Positions 6,934 to 48,500 of a stretch of DNA of 64,000 bases are shown piece after piece. The position numbers and the translations under genes are program-made. The stretch spans positions 25,123,704 to 25,187,703 of the forward strand of contig NC_088304.1 in the NCBI RefSeq assembly GCF_032854445.1, written 5' to 3'. The stretch comes from Liolophura sinensis (Eukaryota > Mollusca > Polyplacophora > Chitonida > Chitonidae). The number at the start of each line of letters is the position of its first letter. Position 1 is the first letter of the stretch. The notes under the pieces were generated by a model that did not search any database, was not told the origin of the DNA, and saw only the letters and a list, made by a program, of their open reading frames with translations.

Positions 6934-9900
6934 GTGTGTATTATAAACATTTTTTTTACTCAGATCAGTTGTATCCTTGGCGGAAAAACTGTCTAAAAGT
7001 GTTTTAATGATTGCATATTTAATTGTGAAATAAACTTGAGAAAGCTGTTTCATTTAATTTTTTGACATTCGTGAGAAATTTTGCAGGAGGCATGGGATTA
7101 TGCAAATATCTGTAAGAAATTGTGAGAAAGCCAAAATATTAATATTTATTGATGGTTTAGAGTTGTCTCCCCTTGTATGAAGACCCTCTTTAATGTCATT
7201 GTATGATGGTAAATGTATCTGTTGATAGGAATGTGGGCTGATAGGCTTTGGAGTGATAGGCTTGCTTGTTTCCAGCGGAGCACAGATGGTTGCTCCTTTG
7301 TTTTTTGGGAAAGTGGTGGATGCTGCACAGAAATCTATGGGTAAGATTTAAACACGATGTGGTTGTGATAAGTGTCTTGCTTTCCTACTGCTTGCCTGAA
7401 AACTTGAGAGGAGTGTAAGACTGACCAGTGGCTTGGGCACCTCGATGGTTTTCCTCTATCCATAAAACCATCCACAGGTTAATAAAAGAACAGCGCTAAG
7501 CCCCAGTAAAATAAATTAATATATATTACAAGTACATTGAATTGCTCTCCGGCCAGCAACCTGCGGATGGTCGTGGGTTTCCCCCGAGCTCTGCTCGGCT
7601 TCCTCCCACCGTAATGCTGGCTGCCGTCGTGTAAGTGAAATATACTTGAGTACGGCGTAGAACACCAATCAAATAAATAAATAAATACATTGAATTGAAA
7701 ACATTTTGAGTATGGCATTAAAGAAAACAATGTTAATCTGAAATCAAATCAATAAATTTCACATCACCAGGCTTTTGTTGTAAATATTTGACATTTAATG
7801 AAATCTGGAAATTATATCCTTTGTGTCCCAAAGAAAAATACATATTAACTGTCAACTGATATTTTAATACACCTTAGTATTATGATCTTACAAACTTGTG
7901 TCCAACTTTCCATTCCTATGACGCAGTTCTGTTAAAGTAGGGATAAGGTACACCATTCATTCATTCATTTGTTAACTCATCCACTCCATCTCCATCAACT
8001 TGCTTCATCATCATCCAAACCTCCTTGTTTTCTTCAGCTGACCTTAACATGACAGTTCTCACGCTCCTGGGCATCTACATAGGGGGCGCTATAGGCTCCA
8101 TGTTTAGGTCCTGGCTCTTCACTCTGGCCGGGCACAGGTTTGTGGCTCGACTGAGAAAAAACCTGTACAACAACATCATCAGACAAGATATCGCTTTCTT
8201 TGATACGAACAGGTATGAAATGGTCTTCCATTCATCCACAGCAGTATAAGAATTATGGGTTATTTAAGTGCAGCTGTTTTCATTTTTTTTTTTTTTTTTA
8301 CTAGTAATTAGTGTGTGCACCTGAGAAGACTACTTCCATTAGATAAATGCGGTCGATGTGAGTCTAGCTCATGCTGGCTTCCTCTCGGGCCGTACGTGGG
8401 AAGATCTGTCAGCATCCTGCAGATGGTCGTGGGTTTCCCCTGGGCTCTGCCTGGTTTCCTCCCACCATAATGCTGGCTGCCGTCGCAGAAGTGAAATATT
8501 CTTGAGTACGGCATAAAACACCAATCAAATAAATAAATAAATAAATCAATTAGGTAAGATTCATTCCTCGATGTTTTCACGTTTTCTATGAAGATTGTGA
8601 TTCAGACCTACATGATTTATGTGAAATGTGGACTGTCCCATCAATTGTTCGTGTTAAAGACACATTTATGTGATTGTAGAGCCTTGAAAAACAGGAAAAT
8701 CATCCGAAACATGAAAGATTAGAAAAAATCAAAAGGTGAATTTTCTGTTTGTCCATTTTGGGATTTTTTAGAAAAACAAAATGTTGCCTTACATGTATGT
8801 GTTGTTGAGACCATTTTCAAACATAGTAGAACATGAATTTCGGAAGAATAGTCTATTTGATAGGGGAAGAGGGGTGGACTAGCAATGAAAGGGGTTGATT
8901 GTGACGTGGGGGGGGGGGGCATGGGGAGAGAGAGAGAGAGAGAGAAGGGGTGGAGGTGCGATTAGGCAGGCAGGACTTTATACATGTAAATCTGATTACT
9001 GAGAAAAAGAGTGGGATTACTTTTTGTGTTGTCTTTTTCAGAACTGGTGAATTGACCAATCGTTTGTCGTCAGATACACAAGTGGTGTCAAATGCCGTCA
9101 CGGTATGGACTGTAGAGCCCTGGGCTGACATTTACTAAGCAACTTCCAACTTAAGTCATACATTGCAAATACTTAAACTCAGAATAGTAAACTCAGTTGG
9201 GCAATGAAGAATCAGTGTACAAATATTGAACTTCCTAGAGCAAAACATTTTAATTGTAGCTGTGTTTGAATTTTTGACTAAAGTGTTAGGATGTTTGATA
9301 AATGTGGGTCCTGTAGTATAATGACGTTGTCACTGCATGAATTTGCAGTGCTTTCAAATTGTTGGTTTTGAAGCGGGGTAAACACAACAAGCTGCGACAG
9401 TGTCGAAAATTATCTGAAGATTCAAATTTCACAACCGTCTTTATTACTAGAGTTTGTTTTCTGGTATTTGGCCACTTACTTGGCTCAGTTTAATCCATAC
9501 ATGTGTTAAACCTTACCATAGTCACATACATGTAGGATGTCTTCTGAATGGCCGGGAGAGTTTTACACAAGAGGTGTGTCTTCAAATCTTGCCGTGGACA
9601 GGAATCTTGTACATCATCCAGCTTTCAGTTTTCTTTGGGACACGAAGACAGTAATTGGTTGGTGGTTCTTGTGAGGCATTTTTGCATTTGAAAAACACAT
9701 ATTGTATGCAAATCAAATAAATCAATCTAGATTCCTCCAGTTCAAGAAGTGACCACCATTGTCTCCACATCAAAATGACTTTGGTGAAAGTGAATTTCTA
9801 TTTTATCTTGATGTGAAAATAACTTTCCTGTTCCCAGGTAAATATCTCCATGCTGGTGAGGAACCTTTTGCAGATATTTGGATCTCTGCTCCTCATGTTT

Positions 9901-12900
9901 ATCCTTAACCCAGCCTTAACAGGGGTTCTTCTGGCTGTGGTTCCTGTTGTGGCTATAGGAGCTGTCCAGTATGGTGAGTATCTCCGTGATAACAGGGGTT
10001 CTTTTGGCTGTTTTGCCTGTTGTGGCTACAGGAACTGTTCATTGTGGTGAGTGTCTCAGTGATAACTGGGGTTCTTTTGGCCATCGTTCCTATTGTGCCT
10101 ATAGGAGCTGTCCAGTATGGTGAGTATCTCAGTGATAACAGGGGTTCTTTTGGCTTTGATGCCTATGTGGCTATAGGAGCTGTCCAATGTGGTGAGTATC
10201 TCAGTGATAACAGGGGTTCTTTTGGCTATGATCCACATTGTGGCTATAAGAGTTATCCAGTATTGTGAGTATCTCAGTGATAACAGGGGTTCTTTTGGCT
10301 GTGGTGCCTATTGTGAGTATCTCAGTGATAACAGGGATTCTGCTGGCTGTGGTTCCCATTGTGGCTGTAGAAGCTGCCCTGTGTAACCATTAGAATGTTG
10401 TCACCCATAACATTTTTTGCAGAATTTGACCAATTTGCTTAACTTTTTTAACTTAAGTGCTTCTTTCAATCACCTTATCTGGAATGTTCGGAATTGACAG
10501 TATTGTGGAATTTGCAAACTAAATTTTTTTCAGAATCATAAAGTGGTACTTTTGTATACATATATATTTATGTATAATAACTTTAAAAATTATCTAAAAT
10601 TCCAGTGATACATTTTCAAGTTTCTGCTTTTTCCCTAAGGATTCATTAGAGGGAGTTATAAAGGACAGCTTTTCACCATTCAACCATCAGATTTCTTTGA
10701 CCTATATGTAAAAGAGCAGAGGCTGATGAGACATTAAGTTCACCTAAAATTGCCCACATTTTTGTTCTGTTACCCCTCTAGGCATGTACGTTAAAAAGCT
10801 GAGGAAAACATTCCAAGACCGACTGGCCGATGCAGGTGTCATTGCAGAGGAAAGCTTCTCTAGTGTAAGAACCGTCCGTACGTTCTCTGCTGAAAACAAG
10901 TCTATGGCAAGTTACGGGGTGGATATCGACAAAAGTTATCAAGAGGGCAAAAAACTCTCCCTGATTCAAGGTAAGCTGTAGATTTTAATCTGAGACAGAT
11001 ATGTTTTTCAGGAGATGTTTAATCCAGATTGCACTTATAAAATTGCAGTTGTGGAATTTCATGATTGAATGGATTAAGGATTTATGGCTACATTGCCTCA
11101 CTGAAGTTAAAGAATATATCAATACATGTAGCTGTAAAATGCTTAATGGAGGGAAATGGCAATTACATTGCCACCAAAACTACATTTAATATTTTTTTTT
11201 TTTTTTTACAAATAAGCAATGAGTGAAATATCATTTTTATTGGTGATGGAAATCCTGACATTTCACTGTTGTATAAATGATAAAGATACAAATAACGTTT
11301 GCCATAGGATTAGTAGTAACTCTGCTCCAGACCTTGTCTCAGATTGAAGACATTTAATGTTGGTCTTGACAGGTTTTATTCAGTGATTTATTTGCATGAT
11401 TGATGTGTTTATTTGTGCCATGCGCAAGAGTATTTCATTTATATGACGTCGGCCAGCATTACGGTGGGAGGAAACCGAGCAGAGTACGGGGGAACTCACA
11501 ACCATCCACAGGTTGCTGACAGACCTTGTCATGTTGTTGAATGGTTTTATTCCAGTTTTTAATATACTACTTTTAGATGTATTATCATATTGGCTTTACT
11601 ACTTATGATCATGCTGTTGGACACTGTACTGACTCACAGTTTGACTGTTGAATTTTCAGGCATGTTTGATGGGACAATAGGGATCCTGTCTTACGGAGCT
11701 ATTGCCCTTGTGCTGTGGTATGGAGGCAAGCTCGTTAATGAGGGGCATTTGTCACCTGGAATTCTTACAGGTAAGCCCTTAATTAGGGAGATTAAAAGGC
11801 TGTGTGGTTTAGTATGGTGTAGAACGTTTGAAATCCACAGAGCAAGATAAAGATATAGTGCAAATTGTCCATTGTTAGCTCATCTGTGCAAACTACAGCA
11901 GGAGCTCATGTCATATCCCAAGCATGAACTGCAAAAACAGTTAAAGGAATCTTAAGTGTGGTGAGCTAAAAAGTTCTGCATGTGTTGATCTCCAGGTTAG
12001 CATACACGTGAAGCATAATAACTGGATTTATTTATTTATCTGTTTGATTGGCGTTTTATGCCGTACTCAAGAATATTTCACTTATACGACGGCGGTCAGC
12101 ATTATGATGGGAGGAAACTGGGGGAAACCCACAACCATCCGCAGGTTGCTGGCAGACCTTCCCACTTACGGCCGGAGAGGAAGCCATAATAACTTGATGT
12201 TCCATTAATGATGCTCTGGGTGCATACTGATTATTGTAAATTACAACATTGGTTGTTAGTTTCCCCCGGGCTCTGTCCAGTTTCCTCCCATGTTTTAGGT
12301 ACAGCCTAAAACACCAATCAAATTAATAAATAAATAAAACACCAATCAAATTAATAAATAAATAAATCAACATTCATGACTTCATAAATTGTGTGTTGCA
12401 GTGGGAATGTATGTTAAAAATGGTATCAAAATAGGACTGAATTGTATGTTGTGACCTACCCTAGCAATTTAAATGCAAGAACTTTAAAACTTTGCAGCTC
12501 ATTCTGGCTTCCTCTCCAGCTCTATGTGGGAAGGTCTGCCAGCAACCTAGGGATGGTTCTAGGTTTCCTGAGGGCACAAATTTAAACACAAATCAAATGA
12601 ATAAATAAATAAATAAATAAATCAAAGGCTGTCCAGTTTTAGGATGGGGGAGTTCAGTGTGCACACACAAAAAGTTTTTTTTTTTTACTTTTCCAGCCTT
12701 TTTGCTGTACACCCTTCAGGTGGCTTTGGGATTTGCCATACTCTCATCTCTCTATGGTGATTTTATGCAGGTATGTTAACATTTTTATTAATATTTATTT
12801 ATTTTTTTTATCTGATTAGTGTTTTATGCCGTACTCGAGAATATTTCACTTCATATACAGTGGGGGCCAGCATTATGGTTTAATTTTCGTTATTAAAATA

Positions 12901-32577: not shown

Positions 32578-33536
32578 TCACCAGTCTTCCCAGTCCTTTT
32601 CACGTTTGGTGTTGTCACTTGGGCTACGCTGACTCATGTCGCCTTTACTTTCACTCTGGTCCCAGTCCTCACTTTTGTTGTCGCTCATTGGCGATTTATC
32701 GAACTTTGCTGACTCATCTTTCGACTCGGATATATCTACCGGTGAAGCGGAGTTGTCTCCCCTTACATCGCTCTCCACCTTCTCCTCGCTTTCTTCGTGT
32801 TTCACCAGCGAGACCTTTTCGCTTATTTCTGTGCTAAAATCCTGCTCCACATCCTCTGAGGGGGTTTCTGTGGCCTTACCCACTGGGCTTCGTTGTTGAG
32901 TTTTATCAAGTTGCGTGCCTTCGTACACCCACTTGGGGTGTGAACTTTTCCTCTTCTTTACCCCCGTTTGACTGGTAACAGCCACCATGAGAGGGGCCTG
33001 CGTGTCCTCTACCTTCACCCTGCCACCTTCCTTCTCTGACAGATGACTTGGTGTCCGACTGTCTGTTGTCTCGTCCTCTGCTGTGACATCAGACGGCTGA
33101 GAGCCTCTCACCAGCTCAAACTGTGGGAATAGCCACTGGTTGTTTTCCTCTCCCCCTGAGCCCTGCCTGAAGGCTGCTGGTGCCGGAGTGTCGCCAGACC
33201 CTGACGTCCCGTCGCTGAGGTTAGAGTTATCTTCCCCTGGCTCTGATTTGACAGACAGCGGGTTGTAGTCAAAGCTGTTACTGTTTGAGTTTCCTCCAGT
33301 GTGTATCTGCTGCTTGGCACGCATGCGGTGGTTATGGAACCAGTTTACTACTGTTTTCACGCCCACACTTAAATTACTGGCGAGAGCTTCGATTGTGCTT
33401 TGATTAGGGTAGGGATCATTTGCATAGGCTGTTCGCAGCGTCTCTTTCTGATCTTCTGTGAAGAACACGCGAGGACGTTTGATAGGAGTTTCACAACTTC
33501 TCTGCTCATCCATGCTACTCTTACGACGTCTGTTTG
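32578..33536 (-). CDS. CUX1: CUX terminal exon: homeodomain and acidic C-terminal tail
   Basis: The exon opens in phase 1 after a strong polypyrimidine acceptor. Some 17 residues in comes the homeodomain, from about [20 protein letters not shown] to the recognition helix [15 protein letters not shown]. The His after WF (homeodomain position 50) followed by Asn51 is the mark of the Cut class, and HNHRMR matches Drosophila Cut more closely than vertebrate CUX1. About 250 Ser/Glu/Asp-rich residues follow, ending EDW. VKSEPGE and RVKVED match the SUMO consensus psi-K-x-E. No further globular domain is evident. The tail probably acts in repression or activation, but this is inferred from family knowledge. 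Confidence 0.93.
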
Positions 33537-36500
33537 CTGAAAGGAAACAAAAAGAAAAAAAAAAGCTCAACATCATTATGCTTAATCATGGACAAAAAAG
33601 AGCGCAAACTCTCAATAGTTAGGTCTTTTCCACAAAAAACTGACACCGTCTTGGGCTTCAGCCCATCATCAGGTGAAAGTTAATAGCCCAGGTTAAAATA
33701 TGGGGTGACAAAAACTAGATTGATCAATGCAGCCTTCAATTACCTTCAATTATATAAGTACGTGGGAAGGTCTGTCAGCAACGTATGGATGGTCGTGGGT
33801 TTCCCCCACCAGCTGTGCCTGGTTTCCACCCACCATAATGCTGGCCGCCGTCATATAGTGAATAGTGAAATATTCTTGAGTTCGGAGTAAAACACCAATC
33901 AAATAAATAAATAAATCAATCAATTATATAACAGCATATATGTACCTTTAATACAAATACAATTTTTTTTTATTGGCACGTGGGTGGTGTGCCAATTAAG
34001 AAACTGAATTTTTTTTTTTAAGGAAGAGCTTAAAATGGCTAATTGTTTGCATACATTATACAAAATAAAGACAGACAAAAATGTTCTAAATCATGTCCAG
34101 TGTGTACCCACAAAAATAAAAATACATGTACAAGCATCAACTAAAATGGCTAGTTTTTAATTCAAACACCAAAAGTAAAACATATAAATAAGTCCTGTAA
34201 TTGGAGTTCGACAAATCTTGGAGCTTACCAACAAACGAGCGCTGACATTTTGTAAGTTTTCCGCTTCGGTTGTCGGGTGGTGCTAGTGTGATTCAGAACG
34301 CTACCACCACCTGACACGGCTCGTTATTGGATAGGCTCTAGAATTATTGTAATTCTTCAACCTTTTCACATGTTTGCAAGGTGTTTATTCAAGCATATTC
34401 TGAAGTCTAATTATAAATGTGCATAAATTGCCCTGAAAGTGGCTCTTTCGTCTGTAAAAAGGTTGAAGAATTATGGTATTTGCAGAAAGTGTAAACGTTT
34501 TGCCACCAGTCATCTGGAAATGTGAAGACTGCCATCTTGTTTAGTTTTCTACATACATGTACACAGCAAATTTAGATATTTTAACCATTAGAAAAAAAAA
34601 TTTAATCAGCTCAAACTTATGCTTTATTCAAATATATATACATGTAATTATGTTTTTAAAAATTTTTTACATATTTCAGAAAAGGGAGTAGAACTTTTCA
34701 CTCCTTGATTTGGTGATCAGACTTGTTTCATTGCACAATGACCTTCACACCAGAATTTTCAAAACTGTCAGTAATTGTAAGACTGAAAAACACTTATGGA
34801 TTGAACCTGGAAAGTTTAAACCTAATCAGGCCATCTTAATTCCTTGTCTTTTCATTCCATCAAACCTTGATCAAACTGAAGGTCAAATATTTGCATTAGG
34901 GGATGAATTAGAAAAACAAGATGGCCGACTTTCTGACAATGACTGAGCAAAATTTTGTGACGTCACATAGACCTCTGGGTGACAAAACGATGATTCTTCC
35001 TGAAAGCACCTCCCGACCCACCTTTAGCCTCTGTTTGGTACAGTTTGAGCTTCTCAATGTTGAAAGGGTCGTTCAACCAAATAAGCATCCGAACAAAGGG
35101 TTCTTTCCCTTTAATGCTGAGTACGGACCAAGGTTTTGGTTTAGAAAGTAGCTCACTGACGGACCCCTGGGAAAGGCCCAGGACGGCCTCCCCAAACAGT
35201 TTCTGGCCCAAGTTGTGGAACTGAAGAACGTCTTTTATCTTGCTTGTCAGGTCAACCGTGTCAAGGTCAGGGGTCATGGCAGCAATTTCAAAGATGGAGT
35301 TGGTGTAAAAGCCAAAGTAGTGTCCGCAGACAGCTGCTTCAATCAGTGGATCTTGTTGCGAGGTAGGTGTGACCGTGGGAGGCCGCGACAGAGAGTGAGG
35401 GGTGTCGGGCGGAGGGGACAGGGCTACACCGAAAAACAAAGAACAGAAAGAAAAACCCAAACTCAAATAAAGAACCACAAAAGTGAATAACTACTACTAT
35501 AATTCTAAATATAAAACTCTTAAAAAAGTCTAAAAATGTCTAATATACCCATGCAGCTTGATTACGAGACACATAACTCAACAAATCATGTTTCTATTTC
35601 ACCTTTAATGTGTTACAATTTTTTTTTTAGTTTTTAATCACTGGCATTTGTGATCAATTCTTTTTTAAAAAGGAAGAGGAGGGCAACAAAGTTAACCCCA
35701 TTTGTATAACCAATTTTAAGCCACAGCGGGAAAAATGAAGAAATGTGTATCATTTAGACATGATTCATTTTTGCATGTAGACCTATTGCAGAATTGAGGT
35801 TCACCCAAAACTTAGTTTGCAGTGTTTGAAAGAGTAGAAACAGTTCACAATACACACATCAGTGCTGGTAATAGAAACCTGTCCTGTGAATCTTTGTCAA
35901 GTGCTTTTCACTTAATTTATAGAAATCAAAACTTTTAAAAACACACACATCAATTAAAAAGCTTCCACACAGCTTAATGAAGGGACAGTGACTTCTTCCC
36001 ATTCTTTAAAAAAAAACACATATTTAATGATGTGCATTGTTCTTTGTTTTCCCTTCTTCAAATTTAAGGCCATTCAATTATCTTCAATGATAATAAGACA
36101 ATGATGATAACAATGATTGGCTATATGCAGAAAAAAAACATGAAAATTAGACTTTGAGACGTTCCTTTCATCATGACATGATGTGCTGCATCATATTTGA
36201 TTCCAGTTCGAGTTCTGTCTTTTTGATCTCAACACATTTTTTATGGATATTGTTTGTAACCATTGTACATGACATGTAGATTTCAACCAATTAAAAGGGA
36301 GAGGCTTTTGGGCAGGGAGGGAATAAAAATAAACATATGAGATATAACAAGCTTGGGGAACTTGTAGCTGAGGTGAAGAAGCCTGTGATTAAATGAGACT
36401 ACATGTATACTACAGATGTTGGTGCTAAATTTGAATTTAAGCATTTAATAATATGTATTTTGTCCCTGGTACATGTACACTGATTGGCTCGCACGCACGG

Positions 36501-39500
36501 CCATGTTGGATCTCTAATAAAAGAATTTCATGGTTCGGCACACATGTATGGAGAAAGCCACATTCCACAAGAGACCAATATGTTCTTTTGTCAAGGCTCT
36601 AGCATGACCGCAACTGCCAGTCAGTCATTTACATGTATATATCAGTTATCATTGTCAAATTCATTTTTATCATTATTTTATAAGAAAACAGATGAAACAA
36701 CTGAAAAAGGCCATGTTCAAATGTTATTTTCATCTGCACTTCCACCATAGTCTCATTATACAGGATACTGAATGACAGAGAGAACACAGAACACCACAAT
36801 AAACCACAACAACAACAACAGCATCATGTTTTACAGTAAAAGTTATCTGACCAATACTCACGTCCATCTGAAGGTTGCTGGGAAGAGGATTCGTGGCGCA
36901 TCAACTTGTCCGGGGAAATTCGGTACTGAGTCGCCACAAGCTTCGGGATGGCTTCTGCATCTTCTAGGAAAATTTGCATCCGAATAAAGGGTTCTCTCCC
37001 TTTCTGAGTGAGCATATGCCAGGGTTTGGGTCGTGCCAGGAGATCGCTGACGCTGCCTTGAGAGAGGCCCAGGACGTTTTCGCCAAACAGGCGCTGACTA
37101 ATGGAGTACTGACTCAACGTCTCTTTGACTTTCTTCACTAATTCTTCCGTGTTGATGTTTGAGTATTTATCAAACTGCTCCTGTGCTATAGGGGGCAGCA
37201 CCGCTTTCAGAGGTTTTTGGTTGGCAGACGGAGGGGTATTCCGCGACATAAGTGAGTTGGCAATGTTCTGCATTCGTTGTAACGGTGACACGCAGTCAGG
37301 CGGGATTGGCGTGCCATAACTAGGGTTATCAGATCCAGCATGACCATTGAGGCGTGGATGGACCAGTTTGAAGGCACTGCCGGCATGTCTGGCAGAGGCG
37401 GAGTCTCGACTTTCCATCGAGTGACGCGAGTGTTTGCTCAAGTCCTGGGGCATATCGCAATCCTGGGATTCCTCTTCAGACATCTCCATTTTGACTCGAG
37501 AATGCCCTTGCGCATCATTTCCACTGCGCTGATGCTGTAACTGATGCTGGGCGTTTTGTGCGATGCGCGCCAGCTCCTGCTGGTACATGGTGCTTGCCGC
37601 GATATTCCCCGCTTTCTCTGCCGCCTGCGCCAACTTTGCCAGCTCTGCGCGGTATATCCTTGCCACCATTTCCTGTGCGTTCTGCTCGTTTTCGCTCTGG
37701 TGCGAGTGGCCATTCCCATGAGCCTCTCTGTCACGATTGCTAGAGCCACACGGTGAACGCAGCCGGCTCTCCTTACGTCGGTTGTTATGGTGGATCGGCC
37801 CGTTGCTATGGGCATGGGGAACACGATGTGGCATTACAGAGGCATTGACTGCGATCCCATCTGGAGAATCTGCAGCTCGGGCCATCTTAAGCATCTCCTG
37901 CTGATAGATATTGGCCACCATAGCAGGGTTAAGCTGCTCCTGTCAACAACAACAACACCGTGTACATCAGGGGACATATTGTAGTATGTACAATACATGC
38001 ATACTACAGTTCTCTGTCATCAGATATTCAGGTGTAATGTTGCAGAATAAAAGCCCTAAGTTTGAAATTTTCTGTTACATTATTCAATGCTTTTAACAAA
38101 ACAATTTTTCCGTCAAGCCAATGCTGTTGTTTCCATGTTTTAGACAAACTTCATTGCCAACATGTCTGCAGCGCTGCCTCACTGGAATGCCTTTAGGGAG
38201 GCCCCCAAGCCTGACAATCCCATCCCCCCCCACCCTCCCTCCCACTCGTCACTGTGTGTGTACTCAAACCTGGACAATCAAGGCCCCAAGCCAATGCCAT
38301 TGTTTCCATGTTTTAGGCAAACTTCATTGCAAACATTTCTTTAGTGCTGCCTCACTGGAATGCCTTGAGGGAGGCCCCCAAGCCTGACATCCTCCCCCCC
38401 CCCCCTCCCCGTCACTGTGTGCATACTCACACCAGGACAATCAAGGCCCCCAAGCCTGACATCAAACTCTGTCACTGTGTACTCATACCTGGACAATCAA
38501 GGCCCTCAAACCTGACATCAAACTCCGTCACTGTTAACTCACACCTGGACAATCAGTCCTAGGCATATCTACTCATGCCAAGAGAGGATGCAGAGAGAGG
38601 AAGTCTGAGTCTCAGGTGTGAGCCAATGCCTCATTGCAAATATCTGCAATGTGGGAACAAAGCAGAGACAAGTACAGACGCAGTTGTTGTTGTTACTTAC
38701 ATGAACCTGAAGTGCTACAGGTTCCATCTGCATGTTCTTGCCCTTCTTGCCATGCATCGCCTGTTTGGCATTGGGATAAGATCTGTGCTATCCTCTCCTC
38801 TGTGGCCGCTAGTCTTCGCTTGACCGTTTGCACAAGGGGCTGAGTACCTGTAGTCAGATAGGACAGGTGTAAAAATATACATATTATGAGTGAATGTTTT
38901 CATGTATTTATTTTATGGTTGTTTACTGCAATATGCAAGACTTTTTCATATCTGTACAACACATGGTCCCTTCACAGTCACAATATCCAATCTCACAATC
39001 AAAAACTAGTCAGCCCTATTTGCTATTAAGGTCGAGCTACTCATTTACTGACCCAACTATATTCCTATAAAACTTAGACAAATTCTGCTCTGTTAATGAG
39101 ATTTTAGTACAAGTGTCTAAAGAAGAAGTTGTCTCCCCTTGCTTGTTAGACTTTCCATTGAGTTTTTCATAGGACTTGCCTCCCCTTGAGATTTGATACA
39201 GTGCCAGACATTCAATATATTAAAACAGAAACACTGGAGCCTGAAGGGTTGGAAAATATTTGGGTTAAATATGCACCTCTTTTAAATATGACAAAGGGCA
39301 TCCTGGTTCCCCAAAAGCTTATGCAAGTCTCCCAGAAGATCTTCCAGAAGGTTTGGAGGAGCTCCTGGACAGTGCATATATTCCACAAGAAGAAGAGGAC
39401 AAACGATTTCGCTCTTTCCATGTTGGACGAAAACTTGGTGGATAAGACTATGCATATCTTTGCTACCTCCAATTTTGAAGGCCACACTAAGGGAGACAAA

Positions 39501-42500
39501 ATCCAACCCTCTGTACCACAAAATCAGAGAAAAAGAGAGTAAAATCAATGAAGAAAGAAACAAACTTGCTACTCACCTTTACGAGGGGATAATTCCTTTA
39601 ATGCCATTACGTTCCTCTCATCGCTCGCCCACGCGTACATTTTCCTGTAAGATTCGCGACCCTTTTCCGTGAGTTTGTCCCAACTTTTGGGTTTGGACAG
39701 CAGTTCGCTGACAGTTCCCTGGGACAGCCCAAGCACATGTTTGGCAAACAGCCTCTGTCCCAGGTTATGAATGCTGAGCAGTTCACGCACAGTTTTAGCC
39801 ACAATGGCTGTTTCTAGGCCTGGCCCGTTGTTCTGGTCCAGTTTCGGACCGTTCAATCGGGTGACAAGTTCATGGTGACCGTGAAGTCCATAAAACTGAG
39901 GGGGAGGGGATCCCAAATGATTATGGCTGCCGTTCATGCTGGAGACGGGGCTAGGTGTCATGTGATTGGACGAATTCCTGGCGTCACCACTGGATTTTGC
40001 ACTGTTGGCCCTCGTTCGCGCGGAGTTCGATGTTCTCCTATGAGTGGTCAGGTTGGGTAAATCCTCGGAGGTTTTCACGCTGCTGGGAGAATCAGCTGAG
40101 AAGAAAACACAAAAGTTTAGAACGTGAAAACAACTCTTTCTTCATATTCCAACAAGGATCAACATTTTCATCAGCAAAAATCAATGTACAATGTTCAAAT
40201 CCCTATGTTTTGTAATAGGGATTACAATTATGTACCAACAGTGGAATTTTTACACAAAAATTATTAATCAGAAGGTTTCAACCTTTACCTAGGACATCTC
40301 TGCTGCTCAATTTGGACCGTTTACTTTCGGACTGCAGAGCTTTAGTTTTTTCCAACAACAAGGTTTCCAGAGATTTCCCCTGGGCTTCTTCCCCTTCTCT
40401 GGAATTCCGGAAGTCCGTGGATTTTAGGATACTGAAGAAGAAAGAAAGGTTTCATGAAATACTTCCATATGCTTTACACTGAACAGACACCCAAAATATC
40501 CCCCAAAACCCAACACCTTTTAGGGTAACAAAAATATGCTGTGAGGGAATTAGACTACATCTGATTTCCACTGCATCCTTTCCAAATTTCCGCATGATAC
40601 TTAATTACAACTTTAACAAACAGATGGTCTTAAATAAAGCCTTGCACCCCCCCAATCCCCCCCCCCCCCCCCCCACCTGCATCATGCTCCACCACCACAG
40701 GTAAAATCGCACGTTCCAAAGGTTCATATGCACAGGTAAATGTATACATGTAGTTTTATAACACAGCTTTTCCTAATAAGGCTGAATATTCAAATCAGCA
40801 CTTAAGGCTTATTATTTGCGTGTTACTATAGACTGCTGTTTATACAAACCACATAACAAAGGCCACGAAAATCTTCAAATAATCCTCATACAAATGTTAT
40901 GTAGAAAAGAAAAAGTGAAAAAAAAAAATAAGAAACACTGTTGTTTTAAACTAGGAACGGCTAATCTGATGTTTAAGTTCACAATGCTGTTTTTTTTTAA
41001 ACAATAATTAACTGAACAAAAGTTCTCTTCAGCACTAAAACATGGAGCTGAGCTTCCAATTGCCACGCTAAAAGAAAGTTTACTGAAATGAAAATCTGCA
41101 TTAGACAGGGGTGACAGCTTACACTTCTATTGTTTATAACAATTTTACTTAGTAACTTATGAAACCTCTACTGTTTAATGGCCCTTGCAAAATAAGAGAG
41201 ATTGTAATCCTTTTATAGGAATATATAAAAGGCTTGTTAAAATGCTCCTTACGAATATACATGTATAAGTTTTTCACACGAGTAATAATAGCATAAATCT
41301 TAACTCTGAACAGAGATGATCACTCTTTGTGTAGTCTTGCTATCCAGTCAGCTTACAATGCTTAGTGGTATTCTTAGTTCTTTGGCATTTTGTGTTAAAC
41401 ATCATTTTATTGACCAGAACGGACCATCTTGGTTAAAGACTGATATAGGAATGTCTTGTTCTGACGCAAAGATTAACATTGAAATATCAAAGTTTACATA
41501 ATGGTTTAAATTATACAATTAAGTCTGACGTATTTTTTATGGAGGTTTTAATTGCTTAGGAAGAGTTTCAAACTTATACCAAGGTGCCCTAATTACAACA
41601 GCCTGCCTCATTAGTTTCATCACACAGGCCAATAGATAATTACCTGTGACACAGAAGTTGGGGTATTTTAGAGTCAACAAATACCTAATCTTGGCTCGGA
41701 CCACCCACAACTTTCAACCCACCCTACTAACTATGTCTCCACGCATGAGCGACTCAATTTATTCGGTGATGACGATGTTGAAAAATTGTAATCTTTATTA
41801 TGTATTGATTTGCAAGCTGAAATATGTTGTATGCAGGCCGCTGTTTAGCAACAAAGCTGGTCATGACATATAAACCTGGTTTTACATCTGTTGAGGTTAA
41901 TCTACTCGAACAGGAGCAAAAACTCCAAGTCTAGAACTGCCTGCAGCTTAGCAGCATCCAAGCAGCCTCTAATAACGGTTTCACTTCTTCTTTTAGTACA
42001 GAGCAGTTTGTGACATGTTTGTAACAGCCATTCAGTAACAAAGCGAACACGTCACTTCAAACCCTAACATCTCCAAAAGTTATGAAAACTGATCAAACAA
42101 CAGGTTAGGAGCCCAAAATACACAGAAAAAAATTATAGTTATCTAAAATTCATAACATTTTATGACATCATATCTAACCAATGGTGACCTTCTAATATGT
42201 TCAACAGATTTTGACGTCTTATTCAAACCTTATGTAACAAATACATGTATTGCTCTACAAGCCTAGAAGGATCTGTCCACTGGTTATTGACAAGATGTTC
42301 AAAGATTTTGCCTGAAATCCAATATGGTCACCAAACCTAGAAGAACACACTTCAAAACCTTTAAAAAATATATCCTCCAGGATTTCACTGACAAATTTCC
42401 AAAAATAGTAGTGAATTTGATACCTTAACACTTGCCATGGAATAGTGAATTTGATACCTTAACACTTGCCATGGAATAGTGAATTTGATACCTTAACACT

Positions 42501-45500
42501 TGCCATGGAATAGTGAATTTGATACCTTAACACTTGCCATGGAATAGTGAATTTGATACTTTAACACTTGCCATGGAATATTTCCATCTAAATACTCCTA
42601 TGCAAAATAAGGAGTTCACACTTGACAACCACTGAATGAATTTCCATTCCCACGAACAATGGATATTTCACAACATAGCCTCTGAGTATTTCTCCCTGTA
42701 TTTAAAATATATTTGATCCAAAAATGTGATGAACTTACTTGAGCTCTCTCTTAAGTTCCTCGTAATCCTCTTGTGTCCTCATTTTTTCCTCCAGACTGCG
42801 GAAAGCACGCGATTTGGACGCTACTTCCTCCTCCAGCTTAGCGATCTAAGAGCAAAAGTCCATATAATGTCAAACAAATAATAACTGAAAGATCGTACTA
42901 AATTGAGGAGTTCACAATCCATTGGATCTGAATGTTGACAAACAAATAATAACTGAAGGATCGCACTTAATTGAGGAGTTCACAATCCATTGGATCTGAA
43001 TGTTGACAAACAAATAATAACTGAAGGATCGCACTTAATTGAGGAGTTCACAATCCATTGGATCTGAATGTTGACAAACAAATAATAACTGAAGGATCGC
43101 ACTTAATTGAGGAGTTCACAATCCATTGGATCTGAATGTTGACAAACAAATAATAACTGAAGGATCGCACTTAATTGGGGAGTTCACAACCCATTGGATC
43201 TGAATGTTGACACACAAATAATAACTGAAGGATTGCACTTAATTGGGGAGTTCACAACCCATTGGATCTGAGTGTTGACAAACAAATAATAACTGAAGGA
43301 TCGCACTTAATTGAGGAGTTCACAATCCACGGGATCTGAGTGTTGACAAACAAATAATAACTGAAGAATGGCACTTAATTCGGGAGTTCACAATCCATTT
43401 GATCTGAATGTTGACAAACAAATAATAACTGAAGGATCGCACTTAATTGAGGAGTTCACAATCCACTGGATCTGAATGTTGACAAACAAATAATAACTGA
43501 AGGATCGCACTTAATTGGGGAGTTCACAATCCATTGGATCTGAATGTTGACAAACAAATAATAACAGAAGCAAAACAAAAACAAAAAAATGATGCCAAAA
43601 TCAGATGAAAGAGCTTCAAAACTTATTTGCGAATATGATCTTTAATATTTTTTTGGATTTTTTTTTTTAAAGAGAAAAGAGTATTTGAAAATATTTTTGT
43701 ATGGTTTGTATTGGGTACTGAAAAGAACAAATTGTAGTGCAAAAATATTTATTAAACCTTTGTTACATCCTTATTTATGACATTATTAAACAAAGACTTT
43801 AAATACCAAAATGTGCTCACAAATACCCACCATACACCATACAAAAATTATTTTCAGCTGTCTTTTCCCCTTAAGGAAAAATCGGGAAAAATACTGAAGA
43901 AAAAATAGGAGTAACTCAACTATCTGGTTGGTGTCCTAACTGAAATGATAATATGTCTTAACATTAATAGACGGTAATTTATGGAGGAAAATGCTGTCTG
44001 CTTTATTTGATCAGCATTTCGATGCCTATTCAATATTTAACTTGAGTGGGGGTGGGGTGTGGGGTGGGTTTGTTGGGGGGGGGGGGGGGGAGATGGAAGT
44101 ACCCATCAAACCTTCCGACTTGAAGCTCTCAAGCTGCCAACCTAACGAAGAAGTTGTATCCAAGAGGAATTGAGCTCTCATATGGCTTGATCATGAGGAG
44201 CATTCTCACCTGAGTTTCACTGGTCTCCCTGGGTTTGTTAATGGAGGCCTGCAGATTCTAAGAAGAATTGAGCTCTCAGATGGCTTGATCATGAGGAGCA
44301 TTCTCACCTGAGTTTCACTGGTCTCCCTGGGTTTGTTAATGGAGGCCTGCAGATTCTAAGAAGAATTGAGCTCTCAGATGGCTTGATCATGAGGAGCATT
44401 CTCACCTGAGTTTCCCCCTGAGTTTGTTAATGGAGGCCTGCAGATTCTAAGAAGAATTGAGTTCTCAGATGGCTTGATCATGAGGAGCATTCTCACCTGA
44501 GTTTCACTGGTCTCCCTGAGTTTTTTAATGGAGGCCTGCAGATTCTAAGAGGAATTGAGCTCTCAGATGGCTTGATCATGAGGAGCATTCTCACCTGAGT
44601 TTCACTGGTCTCGATGGGTTTGTTAATGGAGGCCTGCAGATTCTAAGAAGAATTGAGCTCTCAGATGGCTTGATCATGAGGAGCATTCTCACCTGAGTTT
44701 CACTGGTCTCCCTGAATTTTTTAATGGAGGCCTGCAGATTCTAAGAGGAATTGAGCTCTCAGATGGCTCTATCATGAGGAGCATTCTCACCTGAGTTTCA
44801 CTGGTCTCGATGGGTTTGTTAATGGAGGCCTGCAGATTCTAAGAGGAATTGAGCTCTCAGATGGCTTGATCATGAGGAGCATTCTCACCTGAGTTTCACT
44901 GGTCTCCCTGAGTTTTTTAATGGAGGCCTGCAGATTCTAAGAGGAATTAAGCTCTCAGATGGCTTGATCACGAGGAGCATTCTCACCTGAGTTTCTCCCT
45001 GAGTTTGTTAATGGAGGCCTGCAGATTCTAAGAGGAATTGAGCTCTCAGATGGCTTGATCATGAGGAGCATTCTCACCTGAGTTTCACTGGTCTCCCTGA
45101 GTTTGTTAATGGAGGCCTGCAGATTCTAAGAGGAATTGAGCTCTCAGATGGCTTGATCATGAGGAGCATTCTCACCTGAGTTTCACTGGTCTCCCTGAGT
45201 TTGTTAATGGAGGCCTGCAGATTCTAAGAGGAATTGAGCTCTCAGATGGCTTGATCATGAGGAGCATTCTCACCTGAGTTTCACTGGTCTCCCTGAGTTT
45301 TTTAATGGAGGCCTGCAGATTCTAAGAAGAATTGAGCTCTCAGATGGTTTGATCATGAGGAGCATTCTCACCTGAGTTTCACTGGTCTCCCTGAGTTTGT
45401 TAATGGAGGCCTGCAGATTCTAAGAGGAATTGAGCTCTCAGATGGCTTGATCATGAGGAGCATTCTCACCTGAGTTTCACTGGTCTCCCTGAGTTTGTTA

Positions 45501-48500
45501 ATGGAGGCCTGCAGATTCTAAGAGGAATTGAGCTCTCAGATGGTTTGATCATGGGGAGCATTCTCACCTGAGTTTCACTGGTCTCCCTGAGTTTTTTAAT
45601 GGAGGCCTGCAAATTCTAAGAGGAACTGAGCTCTCAGATGGCTTGATCATGAGGAGCATTCTCACCTGAGTTTCACTGGTCTCCCTGAGTTTTTTAATGG
45701 AGGCCTGCAGATTCTAAGAGGAACTGAGCTCTCAGATGGCTTGATCATGAGGAGCATTCTCACCTGAGTTTCACTGGTCTCCCTGAGTTTTTTAATGGAG
45801 GCCTGCAGATTCTAAGAGGAATTGAGCTCTCAGATGGCTTGATCATGAGGAGCATTCTCACCTGAGTTTCACTGGTCTCCCTGAGTTTTTTAATGGAGGC
45901 CTGCAGATTCTAAGAGGAATTGAGCTCTCAGATGGCTTGATCATGAGGAGCATTCTCACCTGAGTTTCACTGGTCTCCCTGAGTTTTTTAATGGAGGCCT
46001 GCAGATTCTAAGAGGAATTGAGCTCTCAGATGGCTTGATCATGAGGAGCATTCTCACCTGAGTTTCACTGGTCTCCCTGAGTTTTTTAATGGAGGCCTGC
46101 AGATTCTAAGAGGAATTGAGCTCTCAGATGGCTTGATCATGAGGAGCATTCTCACCTGAGTTTCACTGGTCTCCCTGAGTTTGTTAATGGAGGCCTGCAG
46201 ATTCTAAGAGGAATTGAGCTCTCAGATGGTTTGATCATGAGGAGCATTCTCACCTGAGTTTCACTGGTCTCCCTGGGTTTGTTAATGGAGGCCTGCAGAT
46301 TCTAAGAAGAATTGAGCTCTCAGATGGCTTGATCATGAGGAGCATTCTCACCTGAGTTTCACTGGTCTCCCTGAGTTTTTTAATGGAGGCCTGCAGATTC
46401 TAAGAGGAATTGAGCTCTCAGATGGCTTGATCATGAGGAGCATTCTCACCTGAGTTTCACTGGTCTCCCTGAGTTTGTTAATGGAGGCCTGCAGATTCTC
46501 AACATCTTTCACCAACTGACTGATCTGTGATCAACAAAATTACATTTATTATATTTATTTATTTCATCGGTGTTAATAACGCCACACTCAAGAATATTTT
46601 AATACTTGTTTGACCGATGTCAGGATTGTAATTGGGGGACACTGAAGTTCTCGAGAAATCCACCGCTCTTCAGTAGTTACCTCAAAATGCTTTTTGACTT
46701 TAACAAGTGCAGTTCAAACCAGCCGGAGCTCATCTTGCAAGCTCATTGGTCAATATGTTGACTGTCTCGGTGAAAATAGCACTGGAGACAAATTCAAAGA
46801 TTTGCAACAAAAAAAAATTGACATCCTCCTTCTGGGTTTTAAACGATTAAGAAGAAACAAAATGAAAGAAAAAGACTTGAAATAAGATCTGACACAACCG
46901 CACTTCTTTCAATTTTGCAAATTTATTTCTTTGATTGCTATTTTACACCTCAATCAATGAATATTTATCTTAATGAATGGCGGCCAGCATAATGGTGGGG
47001 GAAATCTGTGCAGAGCCTGCAGTATCTGCAAGGATCCACACATTGCTGGCAAAACTTCCCACATACAATTGGAGAGGAACAATTTTTTTTCCAATTAAAT
47101 GACTATGACTAGAGTTATACTATATAGCAGAGGTATAACCTGAGCCTAAATAGAGTTAAATAGAGTTGCTTTCAATTTGTCAAATTTTATTTAATTAGTT
47201 GACTGAAATTAAAACAAACAATAGTAAGTGCATAGTTTAGATCATAATTTTAATGGGGAAAACCAATCAGAATTTATCAGATTTTTATTTATGTCACTTT
47301 GTTTATTTTATGTTACTTTGACCATCCAAATGTCGGTGGCACATTCCGATTCCAACATTTCTCCCAGCTAAAACCACACAGACAATGTTAAACACAACTA
47401 TTTTACAGTGTACTAGGTACTAAATTTACCTCTTTTTCCTTAGAAGCGAGCTCCAGTTCCAGACTGGAACATTTCAGAATGTCAATAGCCTGTTCCATGT
47501 CTGGAGCATTCTGCATCTTTTCAGCCTGGTTGAGGTTTTGAGTTGCAGATGCCAGTTGACGAGTTAACTGTTCAATTTCGCGTTCAGCTGCAGTGGCCCT
47601 CTATATATTGCAGACAAAACAAAACAGTTTGCTTTAATGGAAATATTTAACACAGCAAGGAGTATTGTATCACCACTCCCCTCCTCCTCCCCCCTCCTCC
47701 AGAAGAAAAGTTTCACAATTCGGAAACACAGCAGTAGTGGGTTGAGAGCATTTCATTTTGGGGGAAAATAACGGGGGAAAATGCAAGGTTTTCTTTTCTT
47801 TGGGGACATTGCAAGCTGGGTTGGCAATGCTTTCCATTTTCTGAGAACACAATAGGTTGGGTTTGGCAACGCTTTACATTATCTGGGAACATTATGGGCT
47901 GGGTTTGGCAACACTTTACATTATCTGGGAACATTATGGGTTGGGTTTAGCAACGCTTTACATTATCTGGGAACATTATGGGCTGGGTTTGGCAACACTT
48001 TACATTATCTGGGAACATTATGGGCTGGGTTTGGCAACCTTTACATTATCTGGGAACATTATGGGCTGGGTTTGGCAATGCTTTACATTATCTGGGAAAA
48101 TCATGGGCTGGGTTTGGCAACGCTTTACATTATCTGGGAACATTATCGGCTGGGTTTGGCAACGCTTTACATTATCTGGGAAAATCATGGGCTGGGTTTG
48201 GCAACGCTTTACATTATCTGGGAACATTATCGGCTGGGTTTGGCAACGCTTTACATTATCTGGGAAAATCATGGGCTGGGTTTGGCAACGCTTTACGGTT
48301 ACATTATCTGAGAAGAGGACATGATATGGGAGGTGGAGTTTCAGTTCGTTGCAGACATATTACATGTATTTGGTTCCATTTTTTCATCCATGATGACCGA
48401 GGCATGATGTAATGTCAAACTGAATTCTAAAAGTATACATAGATTTATCAATGATATATATTCACAAATATGGATAGCGTATATTGCTATAAAGACTTAG

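Follow-up and report, generated by a model that had tools for sequence, protein, structure and literature searches.

A probable mirage-type minisatellite with latent cassette exons in a CUX gene of the chiton Liolophura sinensis

The name mirages was introduced in lancelets for tandem repeats whose units run across an exon/intron boundary. They are described there in Adh3 and in globin genes (Gb6, Gb9), with units of 10 to about 160 bp, copy numbers that change between haplotypes and AG/GT splice signals that are often, but not always, present (PMC3087553). According to the same source, reverse-transcription PCR (RT-PCR) suggests that the affected genes are spliced normally, and mirages were proposed as raw material for new introns; a further report adds PGBD5 and troponin C to the lancelet cases (PMC3902484). 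A second system is the variable number tandem repeat in intron 18 of human ABCA7, whose 25-bp unit is described as beginning at the donor of exon 18, with retention of one unit given as about 2% and as independent of repeat length (PMC5954066). Here, we describe a 98-bp minisatellite that starts inside a coiled-coil exon of a CUX gene of Liolophura sinensis, located in a window of 64,000 nucleotides (NC_088304.1, positions 25,123,704 to 25,187,703; coordinates below are those of the window), and we compare it with these systems and with other exon-edge arrays of the same genome.

The CUX gene occupies the minus strand of the window, where Pfam recognizes three CUT domains (39569-40141, 36824-37942 and 34963-35490) and a homeodomain (32578-33585) in open frames between 40141 and 32578. 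Upstream of these lie coiled-coil exons, in which Pfam matched no family and which presumably resemble those of human CUX1. They comprise an exon at 47430..47600 that ends in phase 0 (GAG|GTAAAT), the 75-nt parent exon of the array, which carries the donor (46450..46524), and the next exon after the array (42739..42845), all on the minus strand. Read in this order (47600-47430, 46524-46450, 42845-42739), the three share one joined frame without any array copy, and because the CUX frame is open, the parent exon is probably functional. The intron between the parent and the exon at 42845 measures 3604 nt, of which 2988 bases belong to two minisatellites. One is the array considered here, while the other consists of a 68-bp unit repeated 10.3 times (42871..43570, minus strand, Tandem Repeats Finder (TRF)), which by eye contains no exon sequence and stops 25 bp before the next exon.

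TRF places the first array at 44162-46499, with a period of 98, 24.0 copies, 96% matches and a score of 4298. The repeat begins inside the parent exon, in that the unit occurs once as the parent itself (46497-46450) and is then followed by 23 head-to-tail copies in the intron (44162..46399, minus strand, by TRF and splitting into units). In each 98-bp unit, the last 48 nt of the parent exon are followed by a 50-nt spacer, which opens with the donor (CAG|GTGAGA) and ends in TTAG. All 24 donors read CAGGTGAGAATG in the exon/donor context CAG|GTGAGAATG, and TTAG precedes every one of the 23 copies; only the last spacer, at the array end, differs and reads TTGG. The exon part is 48 nt long in 21 of the 23 copies and 41 nt long in the other two (44987..45027 and 44406..44446, minus strand), in which a 7-bp deletion would shift the frame if the copy were included. 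When a single copy was placed between the parent and the exon at 42845, the frame stayed open for 21 of the 23 copies, while both 41-nt copies gave a premature stop. At the copy junction, CCTCTT|AGAATCTG, the acceptor AG belongs to the exon itself, where it is part of the codon GAG; the breakpoint lies before this AG, and the pyrimidine stretch in front of it is derived from the intron.

These results agree with most of what an initial annotation of this DNA had proposed, namely that a CUX intron contains about 23 potential mini-exons (21 of constant length and two that have lost 7 bases), that these arose by duplication across the exon/donor boundary, that they are in phase 0 with open frames and that they present competing donors downstream of the real one; its assignment of the gene to CUX agrees with the domains found downstream. 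Its account of the breakpoint stands in part, since there is indeed an AG at the junction, but the break falls before the AG and not after the GAG codon.

When the genome (609,464,459 bases in 632 contigs) was searched with the 75-nt exon, 24 matches were obtained among the best candidates scored, and every one of them belonged to the parent or the array. Four copies (3, 10, 13 and 14) match the parent at each of the 98 positions, the mean difference among copies is about 2.9%, several copies carry private variants, and between lags of 1 and 8, copies further apart are no less alike. The array thus shows what characterizes mirages: its unit crosses the exon/intron boundary of a probably functional exon, the units carry splice signals (24 donors and 23 TTAG acceptors), and the four parent-identical copies and the low divergence point to turnover. 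Judged from its sequence, the array is probably a mirage-type minisatellite, whose first donor would be joined to the exon at 42845 and whose copies would remain latent, mostly skipped and rarely included. It would have grown, and would stay uniform, by slippage or unequal exchange. It may also be able to exchange sequence with the functional exon, as the parent-identical copies and the lack of decay with distance would fit exchange along an array that includes this exon. With the first donor, on the real exon, joined to the acceptor at 42845, the 2.3-kb array would be removed together with the intron. The copies would then act as latent cassette exons of rare use; in the rare cases of inclusion, a single copy (48 nt, or 39 nt, see below) would be the most likely outcome, because adjacent copies are only 50 nt apart.

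An assembly artefact, by which the number of copies would have been inflated or collapsed, seems very improbable. The chiton assembly was reportedly built from 14x HiFi data, and one of its contigs (C99) appears to be a mitochondrial concatemer, since COX1 is matched seven times in succession at intervals of about 15.5 kb. Yet the average read, 8,347 bp according to the chiton genome paper, exceeds the length of the 2.3-kb array, the private variants set several copies apart, and boundary arrays recur in unrelated genes of the assembly (below). Separately, C632 is a single mitochondrial contig of 15,209 bp. The order of the mitochondrial genes appears to be of molluscan type.

To judge the splice signals we relied on a local matrix of 17 donors (16 when the CUX donor itself was scored) and 18 acceptors inferred from the two genes of the window, so few sites that the scores are rough. 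The array donor scores 9.1, a value reached by about 1% of the GT dinucleotides in the window. The TTAG acceptors are weak to moderate, scoring 2.4-5.0 over the 23 copies, which is near the weak end of the inferred real acceptors (n=18; -3.0 to 18.5), and the lowest of these TTAG scores is reached by 14% of all AG. Every unit, however, offers a second in-frame AG 9 nt further in, CTGCAG|GCC, which would define a 39-nt in-frame exon and which, at 6.4-8.2 over the 23 copies, scores above TTAG and in the middle range of real sites. Rfam returned nothing at gathering level in the window, and no RNA structure was found for the unit (copy 1; z 0.65).

These signals bear on whether the copies are used. 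CUX mRNA might include one or several of them, so that 16- or 13-residue insertions would enter the coiled coil and copy number would set the mix of isoforms. All 24 donors and all 23 copy acceptors are intact, 21 of the 23 copies are in frame and open, and the second in-frame AG scores better than the first, all of which speaks for such an expressed array. The geometry does not: a 16-residue insertion would move the heptad register by two, and the 50-nt spacing is far below the 16 introns mapped in the two window genes, which range from 295 to 3604 nt. With introns of at least 295 nt in both genes, removal of only 50 nt between adjacent copies would be an exception, whereas the parent donor could join a more distant copy across an intron of ordinary length.

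The coding sequence of the copies also argues against regular inclusion. Pairwise differences amount to 2.98% in the exon part and 2.89% in the spacer, and variable columns (counted without the final two bases of the last copy) number 7 of 48 and 10 of 50, respectively. One of the seven variable exon columns is synonymous and six are nonsynonymous, compared with 31 and 108 of the 139 possible single non-stop changes, and columns 28 and 29 covary within one codon. Five of the 23 copies encode a proline in the coil and two of the 23 carry the frameshift. The exon part therefore shows no excess of conservation and its changes are mostly nonsynonymous; purifying selection on the coding sequence was not detected among the copies, in a test of low power because the changes are few. 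With no trace of coding selection in the sequence of the copies, the ladder of isoforms suggested in the initial annotation finds no support here, and we regard an expressed cassette array as unlikely.

A different possibility is that the array influences splicing through its length without any copy being included, in that it would act as a sink for donors and lengthen the intron, and longer alleles would lead to donor errors or to skipping of the exon at 42845. Skipping of ABCA7 exon 19 is reported to rise with repeat length (PMC5954066), and because of this association a length effect stays conceivable for CUX. In addition, when donor 2, 3 or 4 replaced the first (three tested of 23), the exon was extended into a premature stop. 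The lancelet reports, in contrast, suggest that splicing is undisturbed by mirages (PMC3087553, PMC3902484), and we would consider a length effect quite unlikely.

We therefore return to latent, mostly skipped copies, against which several points have to be weighed. That CUX is spliced normally is an assumption made from the sequence. A strong donor (9.1) combined with a second AG of middling strength (6.4-8.2) is what a usable exon might present, and 21 in-frame cassettes among 23 copies would also be expected of an array in use. The 13 donor and TTAG columns are invariant when the last bases of the array are left out, which has a chance of 0.070, or of 0.26 when the altered end of the last copy is counted. 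Finally, the human ABCA7 repeat, likewise on the donor side, is reported to alter splicing (PMC5954066).

Arrays across exon edges are not confined to CUX. On the plus strand of the window, a neighbouring ABC transporter gene (15 exons mapped; ABC_membrane and ABC_tran domains) has an exon at 9838..9973 whose 3' end is also tandemly copied, a second case in the window that had not been picked out beforehand. Here the array (9917..10363, plus strand, TRF) has a unit of ~73 bp that contains the last 57 nt of the exon, a GTGAGT donor and intron bases, and the exon copies and donors have diverged. We also surveyed conserved exons found by hidden Markov model (HMM), together with their flanks, in three families and one assembly. 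The best 64 of 81 myosin-head matches were sampled, as were 40 of 49 ABC_membrane matches, again taken from the top after omission of the exon in the window itself and of one row with internal stops, and 40 of 132 kinesin matches (the first 40 free of internal stops); the ABC_membrane family was chosen because the neighbouring gene belongs to it. For the first 24 loci, arrays were sought within 40 bp, with a period of at least 15 and 2.5 copies or a score above 200; for the remaining 120, within 25 bp, with a period of at least 10 and a score of at least 60. We placed exon boundaries by eye, guided by homology and splice signals.

Arrays across a splice site were found at 10 of the 144 sampled exons (6.9%, 95% interval 3.4-12.4%), a value that is probably low because edges beyond the distance limit from the HMM match fell outside the survey. 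Six were in myosin (of 64; L025, L038, L041, L052, L057 and L069), three in ABC (of 40; L081, L086 and L104) and one in kinesin (of 40; L116). Seven are on the donor side and three on the acceptor side (L038, L041 and L116); the conserved motif NPLLEAFGNAKT is visibly repeated in L038 and EAMSINKSLS, with changes, in L116, while the array of L041 includes only about 9 exon nt. In the myosin and ABC loci (n=104), arrays occupy 13.1% of the flanks, counted in bases, and 2.2% of the exon cores, so that exon edges are invaded less than introns, though by no means never. Taken together, exon-edge arrays would seem to be common in the chiton genome, at a rate of about 7% of sampled exons for the three gene families and the one assembly covered.

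Several candidates were not counted. The arrays at L046, L031, L121 and L150 lie a few to ~30 bp from the exon match and contain no clear exon sequence, L017 resembles this group by coordinates only, and L015 and L022 have donor-like units without a tie to an exon. In L022 (positions 1-1014; C3 near 25732392), an open stretch (MEDYFRVNLLLEPSEDR) in the 121-bp unit is followed by GGACAG|GTAAA at the end of the unit. A possible further exon-edge array lies at C1:1413360-1414351, where every unit of 82 bp contains AGGTAAGT and where there is also a potentially coding stretch. Two myosin-head exon matches, C1:26642195 and C1:26643291, have nearly equal profile positions 1.1 kb apart, as alternative exon pairs do. 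A genome-wide count of donor series (three AGGTRAGT with gaps of 60-90) gave 3145 matches against 1286 for the pattern read backwards; a permuted-word control gave 1256, but the backward form of that permuted word, AGRTGAGT, gave 2458. We dropped this count as evidence, since matches count members of arrays rather than arrays and the excess is not specific.

CUX was a selected case, picked in the initial annotation, and the other donor-side arrays (seven from the survey, plus that of the ABC exon) show how it differs from its kind. At thresholds of 5 or more for the donor and 0 or more for the acceptor, CUX offers 42 acceptor-donor combinations, whereas an open in-frame cassette was found in only two of the other eight, L025 and the ABC exon. 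That just two of eight offer such cassettes would favour use of the CUX copies; conversely, six of the eight exist without one, so skipping is likely the default. L025 is a serious parallel, in that its best cassette, of 66 nt with an acceptor of 8.0 and a donor of 11.1, equals or exceeds those of CUX in score. CUX stands out because 21 of its 23 copies are complete in-frame cassettes, and it is an extreme member because the breakpoint fell so that the copied exon end is preceded, in phase, by an AG and a run of pyrimidines. A genome with many boundary arrays should contain some complete ones by chance.

It is tempting to speculate, even if we hold it to be improbable, that the CUX copies are in use. 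The genome would then tolerate boundary minisatellites at about one exon in fifteen as a standing reservoir of splice-ready exon copies, and germline changes in copy number would produce a heritable ladder, differing from animal to animal, of coiled-coil isoforms of a homeodomain protein. Exon-edge arrays bear in any case on the origin of new exons and introns. The lancelet idea rested on a handful of genes, and a mollusc genome with such arrays at about 7% of sampled conserved exons would turn it into a countable, testable process, with, by extrapolation, thousands of natural experiments in which the spliceosome is presented with numerous donors or acceptors that are nearly identical. In the CUX array in particular, one could test cleanly how the spliceosome selects the first donor and whether splice-ready exon copies stay silent.

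How does the CUX array compare with the systems described so far? Like the lancelet mirages, as their reports present them, it is arranged head-to-tail, spans a splice site and lies beside a functional exon. Unlike them, it is found in a chiton and has 23 copies, 21 of which are complete phase-0 cassettes; moreover, the chiton provides a sampled frequency (10 of 144 exons), whereas the lancelet reports, as far as their available text goes, concern single genes. A search of the open literature in one library, at the level of titles and abstract openings, found no report of mirages in molluscs, by which their absence is not shown. The ABCA7 repeat shares with CUX the tandem units that start from a real donor and an intron that opens with many GT donors, but the first two bases of its unit are the donor GT and the description seen mentions no exon piece, so that it would contain no copied mini-exon, unlike CUX. 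In introns derived from duplication (potato RdRp, Drosophila, human segmental duplicates), the reports likewise describe duplication across splice sites, or close to them, as supplying ready signals (PMC4974935, PMC2891723, PMC2812944). Those cases, as described, are new introns or lengthened exons and introns, while CUX is not known to use a new intron, and its copies sit within an intron that was already there. Tandem exon copies, each with splice sites, also make up the Dscam type of duplicated alternative exons, whereas the CUX copies are partial, nearly identical and without a sign of coding constraint. The locus is thus best read as a chiton mirage with latent cassettes, of a class already known from lancelets.

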